Shown in pieces: positions 5,549-44,603 of a DNA stretch of 44,603 bases (the stretch's first letter is position 1; each line of letters starts with the position of its first letter). Source of the DNA: a virus. The notes under the pieces are model-generated. The model was not told the origin of the DNA, searched no databases, and saw nothing but the letters and a program-made list of their open reading frames with translations. The position numbers and the translations under genes were made by a program. The stretch is taken from positions 1 to 44,603 of the IMG/VR virus record IMGVR_UViG_3300017963_000103. One strand, written 5' to 3'.

Positions 5549-7303
5549 CTATTTGCTATCTTCAACCCTTGAACCCATTGTATTTTTCTGGTAATGGCTA
5601 TCGTTAAACTCAATATAAACCTCTCCTGCGTATTCGTCTGCCGATGCTGCTATTCTTGTAAACTTACATTTATATAATGTACTTACTGTTGTATTGACTG
5701 CTGGTATATCTGCAATCTCTTCTATTTTATGTGAATTGCTTAAATCAGCCGCCATAGTAACCTCTGTTGTAAACGGGCTACCTGTTGGAACAGCCCAATT
5801 GCCGTCTATAGGTGCAGCAATAAGATCAAGTTGAAATTTAAACCTGTCTCCCGTTCCGTCTGTCGGTGTCATGTAGTGGAAATGATTATCTAAGATAGTT
5901 GACAACTTCATACTGTGCGATGTTTGTAAGTCAAAATAAAAATAATCACCCACAGCAAAACCCAAAACAGGAAAAGTAACACCACCACCTATGCCATGAT
6001 TATATAATCTTTCTGTAGGTGCGTTTGAGGCTGGAACTCTAACGTTTGATATACTTACCTGTAAATCTTCATAAACAGGCTCTATAAGCTCAATTGTTTT
6101 CTCTGTTCCGCAATCAATGAGTAAGTCACTTGCTGCAACTTCGTCTGTTTTGATATTAAAGTCTGTGCCGTCATAATAAGCGCTTGCATCATCACCAGCA
6201 CCCCAATACATTTTGCTGTTATCTTTTACAAGCTTGAGGTGTCCGGCTGCTACAAGTCTCATAACTTCGTTTGTTAAAGATGAATTATTATGTGAGTCTG
6301 TCGGGTCAGTTAGCCATACAAAATCCTTGTTCCCATCTACCGCTTGTAAGTGATCGCCATAGCCGGGGGCGTAAAAAACCGATTTTTCACCTGTAAATGT
6401 TGTATTGCCAGAACCAGCTATACCAAACGTAACATAATGTCCGTTGTCGTTAATTGCGGTAAACCCTGTAGCGGCGCTTGTGCCTGTGCTTTTATTAGAT
6501 ATAGACGCTCGCATTGTGCCGTTAAACTCATTTCCGATAGAAAAAGCTTGTGGCCTTGTTAGATATATCACGCCTTCTGTAGCGTGTGATCTTCGAACCC
6601 ACCCTATTAAAACCACGCCATCTGTCGCAGATGTTGGGTGTGTGTCTGTCCAGTTACCTGCTGTGCTTAAATATAACTTATCACCCTCAGAATAGGGAGA
6701 AGTATTTATCGGCTCTGCTGCGCTCCCTCTTACATCTCCCCACAAAGCAACATAGCCGTTTGCGTTGTTGTCAAGATTCTCTGTTGTCATTCCGAGAACG
6801 AAAATTTTATCAGGGTCGCTGTTGTCTGCTAAGTCTATAGTCAATCTATTGCCCTGTGAGCCTGTTGTATAAACAACCTTCCCGTTTGGTATAGCTGCTC
6901 CGCTTTTATTTACAACCCTTATTAATCCCTCTAAACCAGTCTGTAAAACAACATTACCTCCGGGTAAGCCGATATTTAATGTTCCATCGTCATCAGACCA
7001 ACATACTTCGCCTTCTGCCGGGTCTGCCGATGCAGTTATATCAAATGAGACTTTTTCTGTAGATACTGAATTAAAAGTAACATCTGCATCAGTGTCAATA
7101 TCTTGTGGTGTTGAAAGTGTTAAAGTTCCATCACCGTTATTTGTAACCGTTATTTGGTTTGTCGTGCCGAGTAAGTTAACTATTTGTAAGTAGTCGTTAA
7201 GGTCTGAAGAAACCCCCTCAAGATCCATTAAAAAACGCTGTACCTCAGGGGCATCTTTAAATTTTTGGATTATCCCTCTTGTTACTAATGGTACTTTTGC
7301 CAT
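5549..7303 (-). CDS. Tail fibre/needle-locus protein
   Basis: 584 aa. A short helical N-terminus (residues 1-45) leads into a repetitive beta-rich part with NNGDGTLTLST and DTDADVTFNSV motifs common in phage fibre shafts. The middle (about 120-250) resembles virion fibre domains (VVNKSGAAIPNGKVVY, SEGDKLYLS), and the C-terminal 200 residues are a compact beta-rich domain. It sits between the gp10-like and gp14-like genes, where P22 carries the gp26 tail needle, so it probably attaches to the gp10 hub. It has no signal peptide, unlike the fibre-like proteins at 20-23 kb. Confidence 0.6.
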   Translation of the reverse strand: MAKVPLVTRGIIQKFKDAPEVQRFLMDLEGVSSDLNDYLQIVNLLGTTNQITVTNNGDGTLTLSTPQDIDTDADVTFNSVSTEKVSFDITASADPAEGEVCWSDDDGTLNIGLPGGNVVLQTGLEGLIRVVNKSGAAIPNGKVVYTTGSQGNRLTIDLADNSDPDKIFVLGMTTENLDNNANGYVALWGDVRGSAAEPINTSPYSEGDKLYLSTAGNWTDTHPTSATDGVVLIGWVRRSHATEGVIYLTRPQAFSIGNEFNGTMRASISNKSTGTSAATGFTAINDNGHYVTFGIAGSGNTTFTGEKSVFYAPGYGDHLQAVDGNKDFVWLTDPTDSHNNSSLTNEVMRLVAAGHLKLVKDNSKMYWGAGDDASAYYDGTDFNIKTDEVAASDLLIDCGTEKTIELIEPVYEDLQVSISNVRVPASNAPTERLYNHGIGGGVTFPVLGFAVGDYFYFDLQTSHSMKLSTILDNHFHYMTPTDGTGDRFKFQLDLIAAPIDGNWAVPTGSPFTTEVTMAADLSNSHKIEEIADIPAVNTTVSTLYKCKFTRIAASADEYAGEVYIEFNDSHYQKNTMGSRVEDSK

Positions 7304-8728
7304 TTATGGTATCTCCACTATAGTCTCAACCATCTTTGATATAATAGAGCTTGCGCCCTGCATTCTAATTCTGTACTGAACGTCTCTATATTCTCCAAGG
7401 TTTCTGAAATTTTTATATGAATATGTATCACCAGTTATTCCAAGGTCAATAATTTTTTCATTACTCAACCATTGTTTTTTTCCATTAATTCGCTTATTCA
7501 TGTATATTTTAGCGTTTGTTTGTGTTATTGCTGCATTACCACGCTTTACTTTAAAAGTAATCTTTCTTGATTGTTTCCGGTTAATCTTACCCCAATCTAT
7601 CCGACCTGTAACTAACTCGGGTATTACGTCTTCACCTTCATCTGTAGTGTAGTCTCTTGATGCTATATAAAGTTTGCCTTCGTCCTTAGAGCCGCAAATA
7701 TATTTGTTCCATTTAGAAATAAAAGCACCTGTTTTACATAGAAAGCTGTTTCTTTTCCCTGTAGTGTGGTTCCAGTATGAATACTCAGCCCAATAATCAA
7801 GCTTGTAATCGTATGCGTATGTTTTCCCGTCCGATGGAAAGTGCAATATATACTTTGTCATTCCGTCCGGGTTGAAGTGAAACCCTATGCAATCTTCTAT
7901 ATTTATTAATTCCTGAAATTCGTTATCAAAAGGATTGCTTATAACTTGCGGGTTTCTGCCTGCCATTCTTATCACACGCCTATCAAAGTCAAGAAAGAAA
8001 TAGCTATTATCAATCTGTGTGAATGAATAAGGTGATATAGAGCCTCTTTCGGTTGTTGCACCAGGTATTCTTTGGAATGGTGTTGTTGCATCTCCGGTGT
8101 CTGTTGCGTTCTCAATTGTTTCTGTCCCGGGTAAAAACACCTCGCCAAACCTTGCGAACATTGCAACTAAATTATCGGGCCGTTGCTCTGCTGTGAATCG
8201 CTCTCCGAGCCACGTATCAGGTGCGTCAACGTCTGAAAACTCAACTATCTGTGAATCCGCTCTTAAAGCAAGTAAATAGCTATCGAAAAAAGCCACATGT
8301 GTAGCGTCTGTAGGTGCGTCAGTGTCTGATATAAAAGCGCATGTGCTTGAAGTGTAAGTCCATTTTAAAATCCGGCTATTGTTGCAAAAATACCCTGCTG
8401 TCCCGAAATCAGCGAATGAAACAGGTGCATCTTTGTTTAAAGTAACGCCTGTAATCTCTGTTGCTGTGCCATCTTCATCTACTTTGTACAATGATCCATT
8501 TGAAAAGACAGCAGCAAAGTCATAGTTCATTAACTCAAAAACACCATCTATTCCTTCGCTTGTTGACAGGTCTGCAAAGTAATCATTCGTATCTCCACCA
8601 AGGCCCGGCCTAAAACGATTGTTCATAAAATCGTCTTTATCCATGTCTATAAAAGACTGAATAGCAAAAGGATTGCCGACATCATCGACATTAGTATAGG
8701 GCTTTTGGTTAATTGGTACATCTGGCAT
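7304..8728 (-). CDS. Tail hub / packaged-DNA stabilisation protein, P22 gp10-like
   Basis: 474 aa, almost the same length as P22 gp10 (472). Shared features with gp10 as I recall it: an N-terminal neighbourhood on planned assembly repeats, a DAPDTW-type turn near residue 155, FGEVFLPGTETIENA followed by GATTERGSISPYSF (about 185-230), and a C-terminal YRIRMQGASS-ETIVEI. It forms the hub that closes the portal channel and holds the tailspikes. It overlaps the gp4-like gene by one base (ATG/TAA). Confidence 0.75.
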   Translation of the reverse strand: MPDVPINQKPYTNVDDVGNPFAIQSFIDMDKDDFMNNRFRPGLGGDTNDYFADLSTSEGIDGVFELMNYDFAAVFSNGSLYKVDEDGTATEITGVTLNKDAPVSFADFGTAGYFCNNSRILKWTYTSSTCAFISDTDAPTDATHVAFFDSYLLALRADSQIVEFSDVDAPDTWLGERFTAEQRPDNLVAMFARFGEVFLPGTETIENATDTGDATTPFQRIPGATTERGSISPYSFTQIDNSYFFLDFDRRVIRMAGRNPQVISNPFDNEFQELINIEDCIGFHFNPDGMTKYILHFPSDGKTYAYDYKLDYWAEYSYWNHTTGKRNSFLCKTGAFISKWNKYICGSKDEGKLYIASRDYTTDEGEDVIPELVTGRIDWGKINRKQSRKITFKVKRGNAAITQTNAKIYMNKRINGKKQWLSNEKIIDLGITGDTYSYKNFRNLGEYRDVQYRIRMQGASSIISKMVETIVEIP

Positions 8729-19632: not shown

Positions 19633-19974
19633 CTATTTACTGCAAGGTGCTACAAAAACTGATAGATTAGGCGTTCCCGCTGATGCTTTAGCCCAAAAGA
19701 CAGTTCCGCTTCCGTTATCTCTGCGACATTGCAAAGAGAGTGTTCCTGGTGCTGGCACTGTGAGGGGTGTTGTTCCTGCCGCATCGTCTGAGAATACCCA
19801 CGCTGTAGCGTCCGATGTTGTAACAGCTATATCTCTTCCGTTGTGGCTTGCGTCTATAGTAATAGCTGTGAATGTTGATGTATTAAGCGCTATAGACTTA
19901 GCATCAGGGTTTGGGCCTGCGTATGCTATCCCGACAAGTAGCGCTACCGCTAAAACAATAATTATTTTCTTCAT
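19633..19974 (-). CDS. Sec-exported beta-rich protein
   Basis: 113 aa. Residues 1-19 form a clear signal peptide: KK, a hydrophobic core, then AYA before Gly-20. The mature part is a short beta-rich, Thr/Ala-rich domain with two cysteines (residues about 83 and 111) that could form a disulfide in the periplasm. It overlaps the preceding holin-like gene (ATGA). It is the last of four exported proteins in a row. Role unknown: virion-like decoration, adhesin or superinfection factor. Confidence 0.6.
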   Translation of the reverse strand: MKKIIIVLAVALLVGIAYAGPNPDAKSIALNTSTFTAITIDASHNGRDIAVTTSDATAWVFSDDAAGTTPLTVPAPGTLSLQCRRDNGSGTVFWAKASAGTPNLSVFVAPCSK

Positions 19975-20114
19975 GGTTTCTCCTTTTTCAACTCTTGAAT
20001 TATTTCTAACATCTTAATAGTTACCTTGTGTTGATTCCACATTATATACCCAATCCCTAACAGTGCAGGGTATTGAAATAGTTTGTCTATTAGTTCTGGT
20101 GTTACATTGTCCAT
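19971..20114 (-). CDS. 47-aa holin-like peptide
   Basis: Reads MDNVTPELIDKLFQYPALLG, a short hydrophobic segment (LLGIGYIMW), then a basic helix with LEIIQELKKEKP. The layout of acidic N-terminus, one short membrane segment and a charged coiled C-terminus resembles BhlA/UviB-type minimal holins. GGAGGATAA precedes the ATG at 20114, and that ribosome site contains the stop of the upstream gene. The membrane segment is short, so the holin call is tentative. Confidence 0.5.
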   Translation of the reverse strand: MDNVTPELIDKLFQYPALLGIGYIMWNQHKVTIKMLEIIQELKKEKP

Positions 20115-21860
20115 TTATCCTCCTATCGTTACACTCCCACTACCTCCACAAGTTACTTGGTTTGCTGTAGGGTCTATTGTTACACCTGTTGTTGCTGCAC
20201 CCTCTACCCATGAAGGAGTTGAGCCTGCTTCCTCATTTGTAAAATATGTTACATCAAGGCTGTTTACTCCTGCAACCCATGAGTTGTCATCTGGATTTGT
20301 GGCCCCTAAAAACTCCGGTATAGTTACGCCAGATAAGTAAGGATGGTTCCCCCCGGTCCCTCCGTTAGCAATTGTTGTCGAGCCTGTACTATGTGCACCT
20401 CTGGTTGTCAATCCGTCTACTTCATAAAGATTGTCGCTCCCTTCCGATGTTGCTTTTGATACATTTCCTGTATGATTCGTCCATGCTATGTCAAGCGCTT
20501 CGGCTGTGAAATTGCCATATAAAGCCCCTGTTATAGCTATCGCAATTTGGTAATGTGTTGTTGTAACTGGCCGATATGAGTAGTTATTTGTGATATACCA
20601 ATCACTGTAAAAAACACCGGTTTCAGAGGATGAACAAACAGTGGCATAGTCAACACCGTCTGATTCCTGACCTGCTATATCTACAGTATCAGACAAATCA
20701 AAGACGTTATTTATAATATGCTCCGCTGCTGTAAATGTTCCGTTGTTTGGTTGTCTCTGACTGTACACCGCACCACCAGCAAATGTGTTATTATAAATTG
20801 TTATAAATAAACGGTGATAATAATTATAGTCTCCATTTGTAACGTGTACGGCGTCAAATATATTTTGATAAAGCTGTAAATAGTCTTGTTTTAATATTAA
20901 TGAGCTTCCCGTACCAGTAAATATATTATGATGAATTTTATCTCCCCAATCTTCTCGAGTGTCAGGGCCTGATCCGTCTATGTCTGTGAAGATAGTTGAG
21001 ACTTTATATTTTATAGGATGTTCTGTTATTGTCGAGCCATTAGACCCGGCTATTCTATTATATCTGATTTCATTTCTTGCGACAGTATCAAGAGGGTTGT
21101 CGCAGTACCCGTCCGCACCGTCACTCTCTGCACAGTATGGATAAGGATTTAGGTATATATGTTCCCCGTTATTTCCGGCTGAACCATTGTGGTAGAAATA
21201 ATTATATTCAACAACACTGTCTCTCATCCTCGTTCCATTTAGACCTGTGGGATTGTTATAATTATTAGCATTCCAGTTATCATAGATGTGGCAGTACCTA
21301 ACTATGTGCGGCCCTGCTGTTAAGAAAAGCCCTGCTGGCGCGCCCTTTTCGCCTGCTCCGCCACCTCCGGTAATTCCCAACCTTTCAAACTTCCAATAAG
21401 CCAACTCTGTTGTTCCACCTCTTGAAAAAGCTATTTTACCAATAACCGCACCAGATGCGATGTCACCCTCGCCGTCAATAATGGCCCACTCACCCGGATA
21501 GGATGTTAATGTATTATAGTTCCCCTCAGTCCACGCACTTCCGTTTTTTGTGTTTGGTATTTCGATAGCAGGAAGGTTAACATTTCCCCCACTTGAGTCC
21601 TCTGTATAAGTACCTCCACGAATATAAATCGTATCCCCTGCCGACATGGCAGTAATAGAATTTTGTATAGAGCTATATACATAATCTGAACCACCTGTGC
21701 ATGAACCATCACCACTATCACCTGTCGGGTTATATGTGGAAATGCCATTTGTGCAATCAAGGCTATTTGTTGAAGAAGTATTATGCACATAACGATCTGT
21801 CGCAAAAAGGACTTGTGGAACAAGCAACAAAAATAATAATATCTTAAATAATTTGACCAT
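20115..21860 (-). CDS. Exported right-handed beta-helix protein
   Basis: 581 aa from the ATG at 21860 (AGGGGA site); an in-frame codon nine residues upstream would spoil the signal peptide. Residues 1-20 are a signal peptide ending LFA before Thr. The mature protein opens DRYVHNTSSTN, then GDTIYIRGGTY, the usual start of a pectate-lyase-like beta-helix, followed by repeated turns (HIVRYCHIYDN, DSVVEYNYFYHN, RNEIRYNRI, KIHHNIFTG, YNNTFAGG, INNVFD). Several Cys are present, fitting a periplasmic or extracellular protein. It could degrade or bind polysaccharide. The C-terminal 100 residues are Thr/Ser/Gly-rich. Confidence 0.65.
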   Translation of the reverse strand: MVKLFKILLFLLLVPQVLFATDRYVHNTSSTNSLDCTNGISTYNPTGDSGDGSCTGGSDYVYSSIQNSITAMSAGDTIYIRGGTYTEDSSGGNVNLPAIEIPNTKNGSAWTEGNYNTLTSYPGEWAIIDGEGDIASGAVIGKIAFSRGGTTELAYWKFERLGITGGGGAGEKGAPAGLFLTAGPHIVRYCHIYDNWNANNYNNPTGLNGTRMRDSVVEYNYFYHNGSAGNNGEHIYLNPYPYCAESDGADGYCDNPLDTVARNEIRYNRIAGSNGSTITEHPIKYKVSTIFTDIDGSGPDTREDWGDKIHHNIFTGTGSSLILKQDYLQLYQNIFDAVHVTNGDYNYYHRLFITIYNNTFAGGAVYSQRQPNNGTFTAAEHIINNVFDLSDTVDIAGQESDGVDYATVCSSSETGVFYSDWYITNNYSYRPVTTTHYQIAIAITGALYGNFTAEALDIAWTNHTGNVSKATSEGSDNLYEVDGLTTRGAHSTGSTTIANGGTGGNHPYLSGVTIPEFLGATNPDDNSWVAGVNSLDVTYFTNEEAGSTPSWVEGAATTGVTIDPTANQVTCGGSGSVTIGG

Positions 21861-21867
21861 AAATCCC

Positions 21868-22449
21868 CTATGGTGTATCATCAGCATAAATTATACCTAC
21901 ATACCCACCCACTCCTGCTACTCCGCCAGAAGGGTCGACGGTTGAGGGCATAGTGTCACCTATTGTCATACTTACTTTTCTTCTGTAAGCTACGCTCGAT
22001 GAGTCTGAAAAATATAAACGAAAATCGGTCAAATCATTAGAGCCTACTACAATCAGGTATCCGGTTGAATTAGAAATACTGTAAGATGAGTCAAACGAAA
22101 TAGCCAATGTTTGTGCACCAGTTGTTACTGCTGTTAAATCTCCCTCCGCATGTTTTGTATTACCATCAGAGGAGTACAAACCTATATTTATATTTCCACT
22201 TCCTTGAGGGTCAACACGCATAGTAATTCCTGTTACTGTACCACCTGATGTAGACGTAAATGGAAAAATAATTCCCTCGTTCGCATTATCAACACTGTCA
22301 AACGCCACTTCGTTAGTATTATCACTATTGCCAACAAAGCCCCCTGAAGCCACGCTCTCAACCTTCGAATACCCAATAATAATAGCATTGGAGTTTATAG
22401 GAATAGACAATGCAAAGAGTATAATTAATAGCCTGCTTATATTTTCCAT
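21868..22449 (-). CDS. Sec-exported jelly-roll-like protein
   Basis: 193 aa. The signal peptide covers residues 1-22 (hydrophobic core LLIILFALSIPI, cleavage after SNA). The mature part is beta-rich with GGTVTGITMRVDPQGSG, INIGLYSSDGNT and TGYLIVVGSND, the style of carbohydrate-binding or fibre-tip modules. The ATG at 22449 overlaps the stop of the preceding exported fibre-like gene. Role unknown. Confidence 0.6.
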   Translation of the reverse strand: MENISRLLIILFALSIPINSNAIIIGYSKVESVASGGFVGNSDNTNEVAFDSVDNANEGIIFPFTSTSGGTVTGITMRVDPQGSGNINIGLYSSDGNTKHAEGDLTAVTTGAQTLAISFDSSYSISNSTGYLIVVGSNDLTDFRLYFSDSSSVAYRRKVSMTIGDTMPSTVDPSGGVAGVGGYVGIIYADDTP

Positions 22450-23477
22450 TATTTATCAACCTTTAATGAAATTGTAAGAAATTCAATAGTAGAGGCTGAG
22501 TCTACGTTATAGCCAATAATTGAGCCTCTTGCTAAACTTGTTGTCCACCCTGTTAATGTTGAGTCTTGAGAGTCTGTATCTGTTGTTATTGTTGGGACTG
22601 CTGAAGCTGTGATACTGTCTGCGTCTGTTGGTGGATAGTTCGCATATGTATCAACCCAAATGTCAACAACCGCACTGCCTGATTGATCCGCTAACATAGT
22701 CACTGAATCAATAGTACACGCCCAAGGAATTTCAATATAACCTTTTGTTCCTGTCGTAATGACTGAGCCACCTCCGTCAATTACAAACTCTATAGCGTCA
22801 TATTTTGCATCGGCGTTTAACATGCTGTTTTCTACTGCTCCGGCTGCGATCGTTACAGCACCTAACTCTGACATAGTAACATCACCCGATAAAACAAGAG
22901 GAACCCATAAATCAGAGGTAGCATTGTATATTATTATCTGTCCGTCTGTAGCTGGTAGCGTCCTGTATTGAAGGAAATAATCTTGACTCGCTCCGTTTCC
23001 TACGCCGAAAACGTTCCCTGCTAATCCTGCGGGGCTTGTGATGTATCGTAAATGACCATCTGTTGTAGAGCCTGAACCTGCTGTAAAATTAAGATTACCC
23101 ATGCTTGCAGTTGCCCCGGTCAAATCTACAGCACCCGTAAATGTTTTATCACCTGTGACTGTCTGCGTACCCGATAGCGTAAACACATTTGCTATTGCTA
23201 TCAAAGAGTCTTTGATTAACTTGCCAGTAGTCGTGTCAAACCCTACAAGGTTGCTGTCAACTGCTGAAGATGGGCCGACCACATCACCTGAAAGTGTTAG
23301 TAGGTTTGTTATTGTGATTTTCTGGTTTGCAGGTGTCCCCCCAGGGTCATCAACCAGCATAATAATATCTGTGCCGGCTGGTGTTGTGTTTTCAGGCAAG
23401 GCCGTTGTTTTTGTGTCTGCTGCGTAAGTTGTTGCACTAATAATTAAACTAAGCGCAATTAATAATAATATTCTCAT
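22449..23477 (-). CDS. Fibre-like protein with signal peptide
   Basis: 342 aa. A signal peptide (residues 1-19, cleavage after TYA) is followed by KTTALPENTTPAGTDIIMLV and GGTPANQKITITNLL, a standard tail-fibre N-terminal module, then LSGTQTVTGDKTFTGAVDL shaft motifs. A C-terminal domain contains IEIPWACTIDSVTMLADQSG and the ending EFLTISLKVDK, seen in phage fibre tips. Virion fibres normally have no export signal, so the combination is unusual. It is co-transcribed with two more exported beta-rich proteins. Confidence 0.65.
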   Translation of the reverse strand: MRILLLIALSLIISATTYAADTKTTALPENTTPAGTDIIMLVDDPGGTPANQKITITNLLTLSGDVVGPSSAVDSNLVGFDTTTGKLIKDSLIAIANVFTLSGTQTVTGDKTFTGAVDLTGATASMGNLNFTAGSGSTTDGHLRYITSPAGLAGNVFGVGNGASQDYFLQYRTLPATDGQIIIYNATSDLWVPLVLSGDVTMSELGAVTIAAGAVENSMLNADAKYDAIEFVIDGGGSVITTGTKGYIEIPWACTIDSVTMLADQSGSAVVDIWVDTYANYPPTDADSITASAVPTITTDTDSQDSTLTGWTTSLARGSIIGYNVDSASTIEFLTISLKVDK

Positions 23478-23483
23478 GTTCTT

Positions 23484-23720
23484 TTACTCCAATAATAATT
23501 TATCGTCATTTTCTAATAATAGATAATCGTCATTTTCTAATAATAAAGCGTCTGTGCTTGGTGTTGGTGGTGTGTATTCTCCACCCTGGTTAACACTTAT
23601 ACTCGGCTGTCCAACGCTTAAACCCTGATTGACACGAACGCCTGATTTCCCTATACTAAGGCAATACGCCATAGCTGCCGTTATCAAAATAAAACATAAA
23701 ACTATTATTAAATACCTCAT
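23484..23720 (-). CDS. Membrane-anchored peptide with LLLENDD repeats
   Basis: 78 aa from the ATG at 23720 (AAGGGA site inside the upstream stop region). Residues 3-19 are a membrane segment or uncleaved signal. A middle part repeats VNQG twice (30-33, 43-46). The C-terminus repeats LLLENDD in a 24-nt DNA repeat (two full units plus a third LLLE). Similar LLLEN repeats end various phage-coded proteins. It precedes the exported fibre genes. Function unknown. Confidence 0.55.
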   Translation of the reverse strand: MRYLIIVLCFILITAAMAYCLSIGKSGVRVNQGLSVGQPSISVNQGGEYTPPTPSTDALLLENDDYLLLENDDKLLLE

Positions 23721-23721
23721 A

Positions 23722-24006
23722 TTATCCCTTAATTGACGCATAAACAGCCATAGCGCCAGCAAGAACCCACACCCCTGCCTTATATGTCTGACTTATTGCT
23801 GTTTTTATAAAGTGTTGCTTGGTTTGTTCAGATTTTATGTGGGCGGTGTATAATATGTTTATCTTCTCTGTGTTTTTCTTGCAGTCTAAGTTGCTCACGG
23901 TTGTTTGTATGTCGTCAACCTTCTCGATTAAATGATCAAGTTTCTCTTCTTGCCGCACTTGCGCTTTAGCTGCTTCGATTCTCCGGTCAATTTGCGCTTC
24001 GTCCAT
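23722..24006 (-). CDS. XhlA-like membrane protein (lysis accessory)
   Basis: 94 aa. A charged coiled-coil N-terminus (residues 5-45), then a basic region, then a single C-terminal membrane helix (VWVLAGAMAVYASI, residues 75-92). This arrangement matches haemolysin XhlA-type phage proteins that act with holin and endolysin. It lies with the lipase and lipoprotein genes, fitting a lysis role. Confidence 0.5.
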   Translation of the reverse strand: MDEAQIDRRIEAAKAQVRQEEKLDHLIEKVDDIQTTVSNLDCKKNTEKINILYTAHIKSEQTKQHFIKTAISQTYKAGVWVLAGAMAVYASIKG

Positions 24007-24008
24007 GA

Positions 24009-24194
24009 TTATTCCTTATCGGTTACAGTTATTATTGAGCCATCTTCAAGAGTATGTGTTCCAGTCACAGAGACTTGATCTTCTGAAAGCTCAACAGTAA
24101 TGCCTTTTTCTGGATTTGTGTAAACGATTTTTTTACCTTTGAAACAACCTGATACGGCAAGACATACAAACAAAATAAATATAGCTTTCTTCAT
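24009..24194 (-). CDS. Small lipoprotein
   Basis: 61 aa. A type II signal peptide with lipobox VSGC (Cys-17) gives a mature lipoprotein of about 45 aa rich in Val, Thr, Ser and acidic residues. Neighbours are the lipase and the XhlA-like gene. It might be an outer-membrane spanin-like or a superinfection-exclusion lipoprotein; it lacks the proline-rich body usual in Rz1 proteins, so I cannot decide. Confidence 0.6.
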   Translation of the reverse strand: MKKAIFILFVCLAVSGCFKGKKIVYTNPEKGITVELSEDQVSVTGTHTLEDGSIITVTDKE

Positions 24195-24248: not shown

Positions 24249-24824
24249 TTAGTCAAACATATTATTAACAAACTCGACCCAATGTTTCATAACGTGATCG
24301 CTTATAGAAAACAACAAATGATCTTCTCTCGCCTTAAATACTCGGCATTTTGGATGCGTAAATGATATAAAAGCAAGTTTTGAAACCAGGTCATCAGGAT
24401 CTATAAAAATTGTAGTGTTACTCATCTTTAGTTTAGCCCAATGACGTAACGACCGGGCCGGAGCAAATGCAACACAATAATCCGCACCGAATAATCTTTT
24501 AAACGCAATAGCTGTTGCACCTGCTTTGCTGTGTCCACAAACCAACAGAGGCAAATGGTCAAATCTTTTAAGCTGGTGTTTTATCTTATCGTTTATCTGA
24601 TGTGCTGCCCTATATGCAGGAAGTTTGATGTTTTGCCAGGATAACAGGTTGAAGTTTTTAAGCCAGTCAAGAGCCTCATTTGTCCCGGCAATAGCTAAGA
24701 CCTGAAACCTACGCCCGTTAATTGTTGTAATGAAGTGATGAAACTCTGTCGTTCCTAAATCTGTGTTGTGAATGTAGACATCATTACATGCGTCAACCGC
24801 TACTTTGTAGATGTGTTTGTTCAA
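24249..24824 (-). CDS. Class-3-lipase-like alpha/beta hydrolase
   Basis: 191 aa, starting at TTG 24824, which overlaps the stop of the small upstream ORF. Residues 44-58 (AIAGTNEALDWLKNFN) resemble the oxyanion strand of class 3 lipases (the F-GT--W-DW pattern), and residues 97-102 (GHSKAG) give the nucleophile Ser-99 in a GxSxA variant of the usual elbow. Candidate acids are D142/D144/D145 (IDPDD) and candidate histidines H177/H181. It has no signal peptide. Located at the head of the late operon with lysis-like genes, it may attack membrane or envelope lipids at lysis. Confidence 0.6.
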   Translation of the reverse strand: MNKHIYKVAVDACNDVYIHNTDLGTTEFHHFITTINGRRFQVLAIAGTNEALDWLKNFNLLSWQNIKLPAYRAAHQINDKIKHQLKRFDHLPLLVCGHSKAGATAIAFKRLFGADYCVAFAPARSLRHWAKLKMSNTTIFIDPDDLVSKLAFISFTHPKCRVFKAREDHLLFSISDHVMKHWVEFVNNMFD

Positions 24825-25315: not shown

Positions 25316-25672
25316 CTACCACCTTGCACGGTTTTTTCTAACGTCAAAATGCACAAACCCCTGAACATTATACAACCCTATTCCATAACAATCAGGGAAC
25401 ACAGCATCTAAAAAATCATATACAGCCTGTGGCTTGACATCCTTAACTACAATATCGGCTGCTTTACCTAACAAATGTTGTGAGTGGGGTGATCCTCCTA
25501 TCTTATGGTTATGGTTGAAGCATCTGCTCCCGGAATTAATCTTAATAGGTTTATTAAAGTGCGATCTAAGCATATCAAGAACAAGCATTAATTCATAGTC
25601 TACCCAATCCTGACCACAACCACAAAAGCATTCAAATTCTTTTCGTTTAAAGTACTTAGTTAGTGTTTTCAT
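25316..25672 (-). CDS. Endolysin, M15-type D,D/L,D-peptidase
   Basis: 118 aa. A Cys-rich N-terminal KEFECFCGCG (residues 11-20), then SGSRCFNHNHKIGG (47-60), SPHSQHLLGKAAD (61-73) and GFVHFD (105-110). These supply the zinc ligands His-66, Asp-73 and His-108 of M15A peptidases. The enzyme should cut peptide cross-bridges of peptidoglycan. No signal peptide, so it needs a holin. It ends just before the late promoter rather than lying inside the late operon. Confidence 0.85.
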   Translation of the reverse strand: MKTLTKYFKRKEFECFCGCGQDWVDYELMLVLDMLRSHFNKPIKINSGSRCFNHNHKIGGSPHSQHLLGKAADIVVKDVKPQAVYDFLDAVFPDCYGIGLYNVQGFVHFDVRKNRARW

Positions 25673-28277: not shown

Positions 28278-28289
28278 AAATTGTTTTTG

Positions 28290-28363
28290 CACCTGAGTGG
28301 GACTCGAACCCACGACCCAAGAGTTTTAATCTTGTTGCTCTTACCAACTGAGCTATACTGGCG
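28290..28363 (-). tRNA. tRNA-like gene, apparent anticodon AAA (Phe?)
   Basis: Minus strand: D-arm GCTC-AGTTGGTAA-GAGC, anticodon arm CAAGA-TTAAAAC-TCTTG, T-arm GTGGG-TTCGAGT-CCCAC, total 74 nt. Acceptor CGCCAGT pairs with TCAGGTG at only five of seven positions (A-A and T-T mismatches). There is one extra base before the D-stem and one before the anticodon stem. U33 is present and the loop reads anticodon AAA, a very rare Phe reading. No CCA is encoded. A degenerating tRNA or an unusual functional one. Confidence 0.55.
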
Positions 28364-42459: not shown

Positions 42460-44478
42460 TTAATATTCTATCACAAGACCTATTAGCATTTGATGCCCTA
42501 AAGATGCAGCATATGACCCATCGGATACTATTTTGACACCCATACCATAAGTGCTTATAAAAGTGTATGTTTCAACTCCATAGATAGTCCTTGTATCATC
42601 GTTGCTTGATGAATTTAACACTACATCGGAACCAGTAAAATCAAAAGCTGCTGATTGCCATGAAGTTCTGAAATATGGTGTAACTGTCAATGTTCCTGCA
42701 TCTATTGTGTTTCTTCTGGTTGTTATTAGACCAACAAGGGAGCCAGCTTTTAAAACAGGGTATGTATTGCTATCCATAGTAATTCCAGCCGCATTGTATG
42801 TTATTGGGCTTAAATAGTATGTATTCCCTGCGGCTATTGTATCTATTACGAACCAAACTGTCTCAGTTCTTCCACCTGCTTTGTGAATGTCTAAGTCTGT
42901 TTTAAACCCACCGGAACCACTAAATTTTTTTTCAAAATAACCGCCACCGTTTCCATAGCCTAAAGTCGGGACGACTGGGAAACCCTCAATAAAAAACACA
43001 GACCGCCCGTATGATGAATTGATTAATGTTGCGTCACCTGGAGTCCCTAAACCTGTACTCATAGAAAGATTTTCGAAGTTTACGCCGTAAGCAGCATTTA
43101 CATTGATTGATTTTTGAGATCCTGAAGCATTTATCTCACAATCAGTAAATCTTATGCTTGCGGGTGAGTTTGCTGCTGTTCCGTCAACAGTCGTGGCATC
43201 TATAACAAGCTGATAACCAGAGCCACCAACATAATTGTTTTCAAGCCAGCAATTTTCAAAAGTTATATTATCACATTGCCTACCTGCTGGTTTTTCAATT
43301 ATCACACCCTCGTTTGTATTTGATTCGAAGACAGAGTTTGTTACCCTTAAATTTAATGCGTTTGATATTTTTAACCCGTAACCATTAGACCTGCAATTCA
43401 AGCGATCAATATTAAAGGTCGTGTTGTTTGTTGTAGCGCTCCCTATTTCCATACCGTAATTTGTTGCACCTGTACATGATACCCTATTTATTGTTGATGA
43501 GTTAATCAACTCTCGCATGTAAATATTTGCTTGTGTACAACCTGATACTGAACTGTCTTCTATCATGTTAATTCCATCAATCAATATACCGTATGTCGTA
43601 CCTGATCCAACAACGCCAATGTTTTTAATTTTATTGTAAGAGGTAAATGTATCATTACCGGTTAAGGATATATCAATACCAACAGTTCCATTTGTAAATG
43701 AAAGATATGTTCCCGCCTTTGGTGTTTCATATCCATACATAGATGTCGACCCAACAATTGAAACATTCCGCTTTTCGTTAAGTGTGATCACATCAGGCGA
43801 ACAACTAAATGTACCTTTTGGGATCCTTACTGTTCCACCTTCTGTTCTATCTGTGAAGTTGTCAATAGCTGCCTGTATTGCTGTTGCGTTTATTGCTGCG
43901 CTTGCGGACTCACTCAACCCATACCAATCAGCGTGTATTTCTGTTTTGTTATATAGTCTTTTCCACCGACCTGTGGTTATAGATGTCACCTTGACTGTCA
44001 GCCCGGTGTCGTCTGAATCTGTGCTTGTTGCGTCCCAATAGAATTGACCGCCACCACCGTCACCGGGAGTGTAGTAGCCTAAAAGAGTAATAACTGAACC
44101 ATCTTCAGCGCCACCAGTACCAGCTCTCATATCTACTATAGAATCATACCCAACACTTGAAGGGTCTGTTGTTACAATATATTCAGCACCATCAATAGAG
44201 CCTGATAGTGGTGTTGTTAATCCTGTGTCTGTCGGTGCGTAAATATTAATTTTATAAGCACCGTCACCAAAAGCTTTTAATACACCATTTGAGTCAAGTG
44301 TCGATTGTGTTAAGCCTGCGCCAGATGGTAAAGTTTTATCGGTATCTAACCAAACAGCTTTAGGCGTAGTAGTTCCAGATTCGAAGAATGCAACTATCGC
44401 GCCTGAATATGATTGACCAGTGTCTGGATCGTTTAAACCTGCCCATAATGCGTCTATTTGTAGTGCTGTTGATGCCAT
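42460..44478 (-). CDS. Tailspike, right-handed beta-helix
   Basis: 672 aa. A virion-binding N-terminus (residues 1-110) starts STALQIDALWAGLNDPDTGQ and has typical fibre-head motifs. Residues 165-200 (WYGLSESASAAINATAIQAAIDN) open a pectate-lyase-like beta-helix with repeats such as RNVSIVGS, INMIEDSSVSGC, NITFENCWL, and a small C-terminal domain from about 560. It replaces P22 gp9 at the end of the late operon. Enzymatic residues cannot be assigned. Its ATG follows the gp16-like stop directly (AAGGAG site inside the repeat). Confidence 0.75.
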   Translation of the reverse strand: MASTALQIDALWAGLNDPDTGQSYSGAIVAFFESGTTTPKAVWLDTDKTLPSGAGLTQSTLDSNGVLKAFGDGAYKINIYAPTDTGLTTPLSGSIDGAEYIVTTDPSSVGYDSIVDMRAGTGGAEDGSVITLLGYYTPGDGGGGQFYWDATSTDSDDTGLTVKVTSITTGRWKRLYNKTEIHADWYGLSESASAAINATAIQAAIDNFTDRTEGGTVRIPKGTFSCSPDVITLNEKRNVSIVGSTSMYGYETPKAGTYLSFTNGTVGIDISLTGNDTFTSYNKIKNIGVVGSGTTYGILIDGINMIEDSSVSGCTQANIYMRELINSSTINRVSCTGATNYGMEIGSATTNNTTFNIDRLNCRSNGYGLKISNALNLRVTNSVFESNTNEGVIIEKPAGRQCDNITFENCWLENNYVGGSGYQLVIDATTVDGTAANSPASIRFTDCEINASGSQKSINVNAAYGVNFENLSMSTGLGTPGDATLINSSYGRSVFFIEGFPVVPTLGYGNGGGYFEKKFSGSGGFKTDLDIHKAGGRTETVWFVIDTIAAGNTYYLSPITYNAAGITMDSNTYPVLKAGSLVGLITTRRNTIDAGTLTVTPYFRTSWQSAAFDFTGSDVVLNSSSNDDTRTIYGVETYTFISTYGMGVKIVSDGSYAASLGHQMLIGLVIEY

Positions 44479-44603
44479 TTATTGCTCCTTGTCTTTTAGT
44501 GCTTCTCTTAATCCCAATGCAGCTAAATGATTTTTAAATCTACTTTCTATAATTTTGATTGGCCTACCTTTTGCAGCCATTTGTATTGTTTGTGCAAATT
44601 CAG
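44479..44603 (-). CDS. C-terminus of the gp16-like protein (second copy)
   Basis: Codes for the last residues, ending ALKDKEQ, and the TAA stop (44479-44481) of the gene that starts at 2410, through the terminal repeat. The true gene spans the circle junction; this copy is not separate. Confidence 0.8.
   Translation of the reverse strand, partial: EFAQTIQMAAKGRPIKIIESRFKNHLAALGLREALKDKEQ
44481..44603. repeat. Terminal direct repeat, right copy
   Basis: Identical to 1-123. See the left copy. Confidence 0.9.

Follow-up and report, generated by a model that had tools for sequence, protein, structure and literature searches.

Predicted Sec leaders on a block of coupled, fibre-like late proteins in a virus with P22-like head and tail genes

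The assembly of tailed phages is taught as a wholly cytoplasmic process until lysis. T5 Llp and T1 Cor are envelope-placed, receptor-blocking lipoproteins or exclusion proteins that can reduce superinfection. P22 SieA is described as an envelope protein with the same ability (PMC10883804), and exported phage endolysins are well known, e.g., Lys44 of fOg44 and the SAR endolysins of P1 and 21 (PMC6116005). Like these endolysins, the proteins considered here appear to be phage late proteins that take the host Sec route; however, the endolysins are lysis enzymes, whereas here the predicted leaders are found on fibres and, in the sister contigs L059 and L124, on a homologue of tail-stabilization proteins. 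With Llp, Cor, and SieA they would share placement in the envelope, but they show no convincing sequence match to any of these and comprise fibre-type adhesins encoded by five or six genes. In the open-access literature searched, we found no description of signal peptides on the tail, fibre, or receptor-binding proteins of tailed phages.

The whole stretch of DNA analysed (hereafter, the window) is the 44.6-kb virus record IMGVR_UViG_3300017963_000103, which carries on its minus strand a P22-like head and tail gene set (portal, terminase, head-closure, and tailspike genes). It probably represents a complete, circularly closed genome, given that a 123-base direct repeat is present at both of its ends (1-123 and 44481-44603). 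ARAGORN predicts in it a tRNA-Phe (28289-28363, minus strand) with the unusual anticodon AAA; Phe tRNAs normally read GAA. The canonical tail genes and two genes upstream of the block are as follows:

5549-7303: fibre-like protein, without a leader
7304-8728, minus strand: head-closure protein (phrog_578), without a leader
42460-44478, minus strand: tailspike, without a leader
25316-25672, minus strand: M15 peptidase endolysin (Pfam, 4.7e-23; phrog_894, 4.5e-38), without a leader, upstream of the block in the same late operon
24249-24824, minus strand: lipase/esterase-like protein (phrog_21992, E = 3.1e-9), without a signal peptide, downstream of the endolysin and upstream of the 61-aa lipoprotein

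Around the canonical tail genes, the gene order of both the window and L059 is like that of the P22-like tail machine (gp4, gp10 head closure, tailspike), but the leaders of L059 and L124 run from the stabilization homologue onward, whereas those of the window are confined to a separate block. This block lies between the endolysin and terminase genes, and its order after the lipase-like gene, from upstream to downstream, is as follows:

24009-24194, minus strand: 61-aa lipoprotein (lipobox VSGC, predicted cut VSG/C), next but one upstream of the 78-aa gene
23722-24006, minus strand: 94-aa coiled-coil-like protein with a C-terminal hydrophobic segment and a positional counterpart in L098
23484-23720, minus strand: 78-aa protein with a predicted signal peptide (AMA/YC) and LLLE repeats at its end
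22449-23477, minus strand: 342-aa fibre with a predicted signal peptide (leader 23421-23477) and a C-terminal beta-sandwich domain (22449-22826)
21868-22449, minus strand: 193-aa predicted signal-peptide protein (leader 22384-22449) with a weak DUF4082-like middle
20115-21860, minus strand: 581-aa predicted signal-peptide protein (leader 21801-21860), with only an N-terminal cap motif to suggest a beta-helix
19971-20114, minus strand: 47-aa protein with one hydrophobic segment; a stretch 47% identical to it occupies the same place in L027
19633-19974, minus strand: 113-aa predicted signal-peptide protein (leader 19918-19974, cleavage AYA/GP) with two cysteines in its mature part

A Sec-type leader starts six of the eight consecutive genes between 19633 and 24194 on the minus strand. 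The genes are tightly coupled, with neighbours overlapping or almost touching and a Shine-Dalgarno motif before most of them. Signal-peptidase-I sites are predicted in the 113-, 581-, 193-, 342-, and 78-aa proteins, among them VGIAYA/GPNP (113 aa), VLFA/TDRY (581 aa), INSNA/IIIG (193 aa), and ATTYA/ADTK (342 aa); the 61-aa protein is the predicted lipoprotein. In these leaders, n-, h-, and c-regions can be recognized, and positions -3 and -1 are occupied by small residues except in the 581-aa protein, which has Leu at -3. Thus, the open reading frames and cleavable signal peptides originally proposed for the 113-, 581-, 193-, and 342-aa proteins are recovered. In the case of the 78-aa protein, for which a membrane segment had been proposed, the hydrophobic N-terminus is indeed present, but it too looks cleavable (TAAMA/YCLS). 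Hence, leaders are predicted on all five, in place of the leaderless N-termini expected of fibres that remain in the cytoplasm. The predictions were made with a simple home-made script rather than SignalP; it recovered five E. coli leaders (OmpA, PhoA, MalE, OmpF, and DsbA, with MalE cut two residues early) and its rate of calls was 1.1% for scrambled N-termini, with a single call among 129 internal Met starts. Given a background leader rate of 3% among about 2000 genes of related phage loci, and a permutation p of ~1e-5 for six signal-peptide genes falling within 8 of the 80 called genes, chance clustering of hydrophobic N-termini can be set aside.

It might still be argued that these leaders do not bring about functional export, being inefficient or acting as N-terminal anchors, and that assembly of the proteins takes place in the cytoplasm, as for other fibres. 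Export here is a prediction of a home-made script, and the canonical tail genes of the window phage are leaderless, both of which are in keeping with this reading. We nevertheless regard it as unlikely: nearly all of the 23 listed block proteins, whatever the body that follows, have classical n-, h-, and c-regions and small residues at the cut, and further points against it emerge from the comparisons below.

The clearest of these comparisons concerns the 342-aa protein. Its residues 20-342, starting at the predicted cleavage site (ATTYA/ADTK), align at 39% identity with residues 2-275 (M/ADTK) of a fibre in L098, which has the same C-terminal domain and similar neighbours but, like the fibres neighbouring it, lacks a signal peptide. 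Since the homology to this leaderless relative begins at the predicted cleavage site, the leader is, at the sequence level, an exact N-terminal prefix added to a phage fibre; on this ground a wrongly chosen start codon was rejected, and the same observation speaks against leaders without functional export. The full-length L098 match, together with matches of the 342-aa protein to phrog_35197 (3.3e-36) and phrog_10330 (3.9e-13), the domain also borne by the L098 fibre, bears out the tail-fibre module originally recognized in it. The local order is similar in L098, with a phrog_894 endolysin, an LLLE protein, and the fibre, and a coil/membrane protein beside the endolysin. The LLLE protein of L098 (88 aa; L098 6226-6492) has no leader and occupies the place corresponding to the 78-aa gene of the window; it ends in FFLLEDGFKLLLET and the 78-aa protein in LLLENDDYLLLENDDKLLLE. 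In both phages, a small protein ending in LLLE(N/D/G) repeats is thus encoded directly upstream of the fibre gene, with a predicted leader in the window and none in L098.

The C-terminal domain of the 342-aa protein (125 residues) is present in at least 132 viral loci, 80 of which were kept for analysis, and 65 of the 71 distinct proteins carrying it are leaderless; where such a protein has a leader, the adjoining genes tend to have leaders too. It is modelled with high confidence (pLDDT 95.3) as a beta-sandwich whose best PDB match is the tail fibre of Agrobacterium phage 7-7-1. Among viral proteins, its structure matches are to the terminal parts of collagen-type and Mtd-N fibres, and it is annotated as a virion structural protein in several cyanophages. 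An origin of the block as a cellular island was rejected, the homologues of the fibre being phage proteins.

Such homologues of fibre tips would be expected to bind host surface structures, raising the possibility that the exported proteins are receptor-masking decoys that never join virions and instead bind receptor glycans on the inner or outer side of the envelope or on lysis debris. By analogy, their purpose could be to block superinfection and to stop the loss of new virions on debris, much as in the case of T5 Llp. We consider this reading, with the purpose it implies, possible though doubtful; for the window it is the main rival of the explanation favoured below. The position between endolysin and terminase genes would suit decoys, as would a leaderless tailspike and fibre already being encoded in the window. 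The block also includes the 61-aa lipoprotein, whose weak PHROG matches are to Cor (E 0.02, over the 26 residues of the leader) and to an Rz-like spanin (E 0.24). Against this, no known exclusion family gives a good match in Pfam or PHROG, and the decoy reading does not account for the passage of periplasmic proteins to the outer face ahead of lysis.

Pfam and PHROG searches gave no fibre match for the 113-, 193-, and 581-aa proteins, no family above chance for the 113-aa protein, and no murein hydrolase domain behind any leader of the block. The DUF4082 match of the 193-aa protein (E=4.8e-5) is below the cut-off, and the 94-aa coiled-coil-like protein is possibly lysis related. For the 581-aa protein, the start at 21860, with AGGGG upstream, was preferred over an alternative giving 590 aa. 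The beta-helix proposed for it could not be confirmed: it has no Pfam or PHROG match, its single-sequence AlphaFold model is useless (pLDDT 31), and what points to this fold is a 29-residue "AGDTIYIRGGTY"-type cap motif common to it and a true beta-helix protein of L027.

This cap motif bears on a further reading, namely, that the block encodes enzymes that degrade glycans or bind matrix and are secreted so as to open biofilm or capsule. The L027 counterpart of the 581-aa protein matches Pfam Beta_helix, with a xylosidase match at its N-terminus, and a LamG-type lectin domain follows a leader in L059, as this reading would suggest. However, no enzyme family reaches the cut-off in Pfam or PHROG for the window block, no catalytic residues can be assigned in it, and its best understood member, the 342-aa protein, is a fibre rather than an enzyme. 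The matrix-degrading function first suggested finds no sequence support other than the possible beta-helix, and we think the enzyme reading unlikely.

The original prediction had called for the same gene arrangement to be sought in other phages, and the same design was found in two further lineages, one represented by L027 and the other by L059/L124. In L027, a 15.4-kb contig, six consecutive leader proteins (135, 78, 433, 185, 365, and 676 aa) are followed downstream by a counterpart of the 47-aa gene and then by terminase genes of another family. The C-terminal 150 residues of the 433-aa protein are 78% common to it and the 342-aa protein of the window. Further, the 185-aa protein and the 193-aa protein of the window are 63% identical over 30 aa covering the leader and first mature residues, with the rest aligning weakly. 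The 47-aa gene counterpart (L027 6614-6760) has an in-frame TAA and may be broken or start downstream. Gene calls on these related loci are automatic. Viral-contig scans with the 590-aa form and with individual L059/L124 genes added little to the known loci, one of them yielding L124; INPHARED searches with the 342-, 193-, 590-, and 113-aa proteins gave no match, and ten control phage loci from annotated records contained no comparable leader block. Single or paired leader fibres occur in L040, L053, L081, and L088. Large fibre-like signal-peptide proteins, one with a lipobox, were observed in unrelated phages at L053 8984-13978, L040 4841-12134, and L088 6191-7932, and these three suggest a wider spread of leader-bearing fibres.

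L059 and L124 each contain six consecutive signal-peptide genes, flanked in L059 by a tail-adaptor-like gene on one side and acetyltransferase and ejection-type genes on the other, which is the place of the canonical tail genes. Both are 9-14 kb fragments from one metagenome, so a second, leaderless tail protein may be encoded elsewhere. The first leader protein (529 aa) is a homologue of "phage stabilization" or tail-structure proteins encoded by Pelagibacter and Roseobacter phages, among others. Its match to phrog_5107 begins at residue 23 (profile position 3), close to the cleavage predicted at residue 20, and none of seven relatives checked has a leader. A wrong start was rejected for this protein, the same ATG serving in two distinct gene contexts. 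Comparison of the sisters indicates strong purifying selection on it (pS 0.31, pN 0.016), and its 20 leader codons show four synonymous and no nonsynonymous changes, which speaks against a leader that does not export. The leaders of the 422/320-aa pair have diverged from each other, yet both are still leaders, and conservation is seen at the mature start. Swaps or extensions have affected other members (422/320, 352/400, a new 147-aa protein, and 146 plus 251 aa replaced by 114 aa), all with a leader. Leaders on proteins in the canonical tail position, including a stabilization homologue, also argue against decoys.

The mature leader proteins of L059 and L124 have 0, 2, or 4 cysteines, all even and mostly in close pairs, at a density of 0.99 per 100 residues versus 0.24 in other proteins. 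This looks like the pattern of proteins folded in an oxidising periplasm and likewise disfavours leaders without export. Cysteine counts in L027 are even with one exception, but the parity is absent from the window block (2, 7, 0, 1, 1), and the case for the window therefore rests on leaders and homology. Pooled over the three lineages, counts are even in 14 of 18 leader proteins versus 26 of 59 leaderless same-domain proteins (Fisher p 0.012), a modest effect with related families among the 18.

The sequence itself thus shows that the leaders are there, that one of them is prefixed exactly to a fibre, that the genes form a block, that such blocks recur, and that the leader of the 529-aa sister pair is under selection, and it supports the original picture of coupled, apparently Sec-exported, fibre-like proteins within a late operon. 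From these we infer export, cleavage, timing, and attachment to particles, and tentatively favour a fibre cassette that is exported by Sec, folds in the periplasm, and joins particles from outside at lysis. Under this proposal, ordinary phage fibre-type proteins would each have gained a cleavable Sec signal peptide. They would be synthesized late in infection, next to the lysis proteins, and pass by export into the periplasm, where the leader would be removed and the proteins would fold, in some lineages with disulfide bonds. The folded fibres would wait there while filled heads form in the cytoplasm, until lysis mixes the compartments and allows them to act as adhesins that bind surface glycans, most likely after joining the particle from outside. 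P22 tailspikes, for their part, can be attached in vitro to completed heads as the last step. Joining at lysis is judged most likely because the leaders of L059/L124 sit on canonical tail-position proteins. In the window, the canonical tail genes are leaderless, and the exported block may therefore be an extra to the virion; also against a virion role, export could separate the proteins from assembly in the cytoplasm.

The tail-position leaders of L059/L124, and the 342-aa protein being an ordinary fibre with an exact prefix, weaken the premise that nothing exported can be a virion part; on these grounds, a virion role after export appears no less likely than a distinct system for surface coating or superinfection. 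A broader formulation, in which tail construction in some tailed phages takes place partly outside the cytoplasm, by Sec export, periplasmic disulfide folding, and joining to DNA-filled heads only at lysis, with cassettes that are interchangeable between phages and keep their signal peptides, is rather doubtful at present. On a practical level, automatic annotation may mislabel leader-bearing phage fibres as secreted host proteins. For the phages themselves, conserved signal peptides on fibres and on a tail-stabilization homologue would point either to a two-compartment assembly line or to exported adhesins with a protective role for the cell or the progeny.
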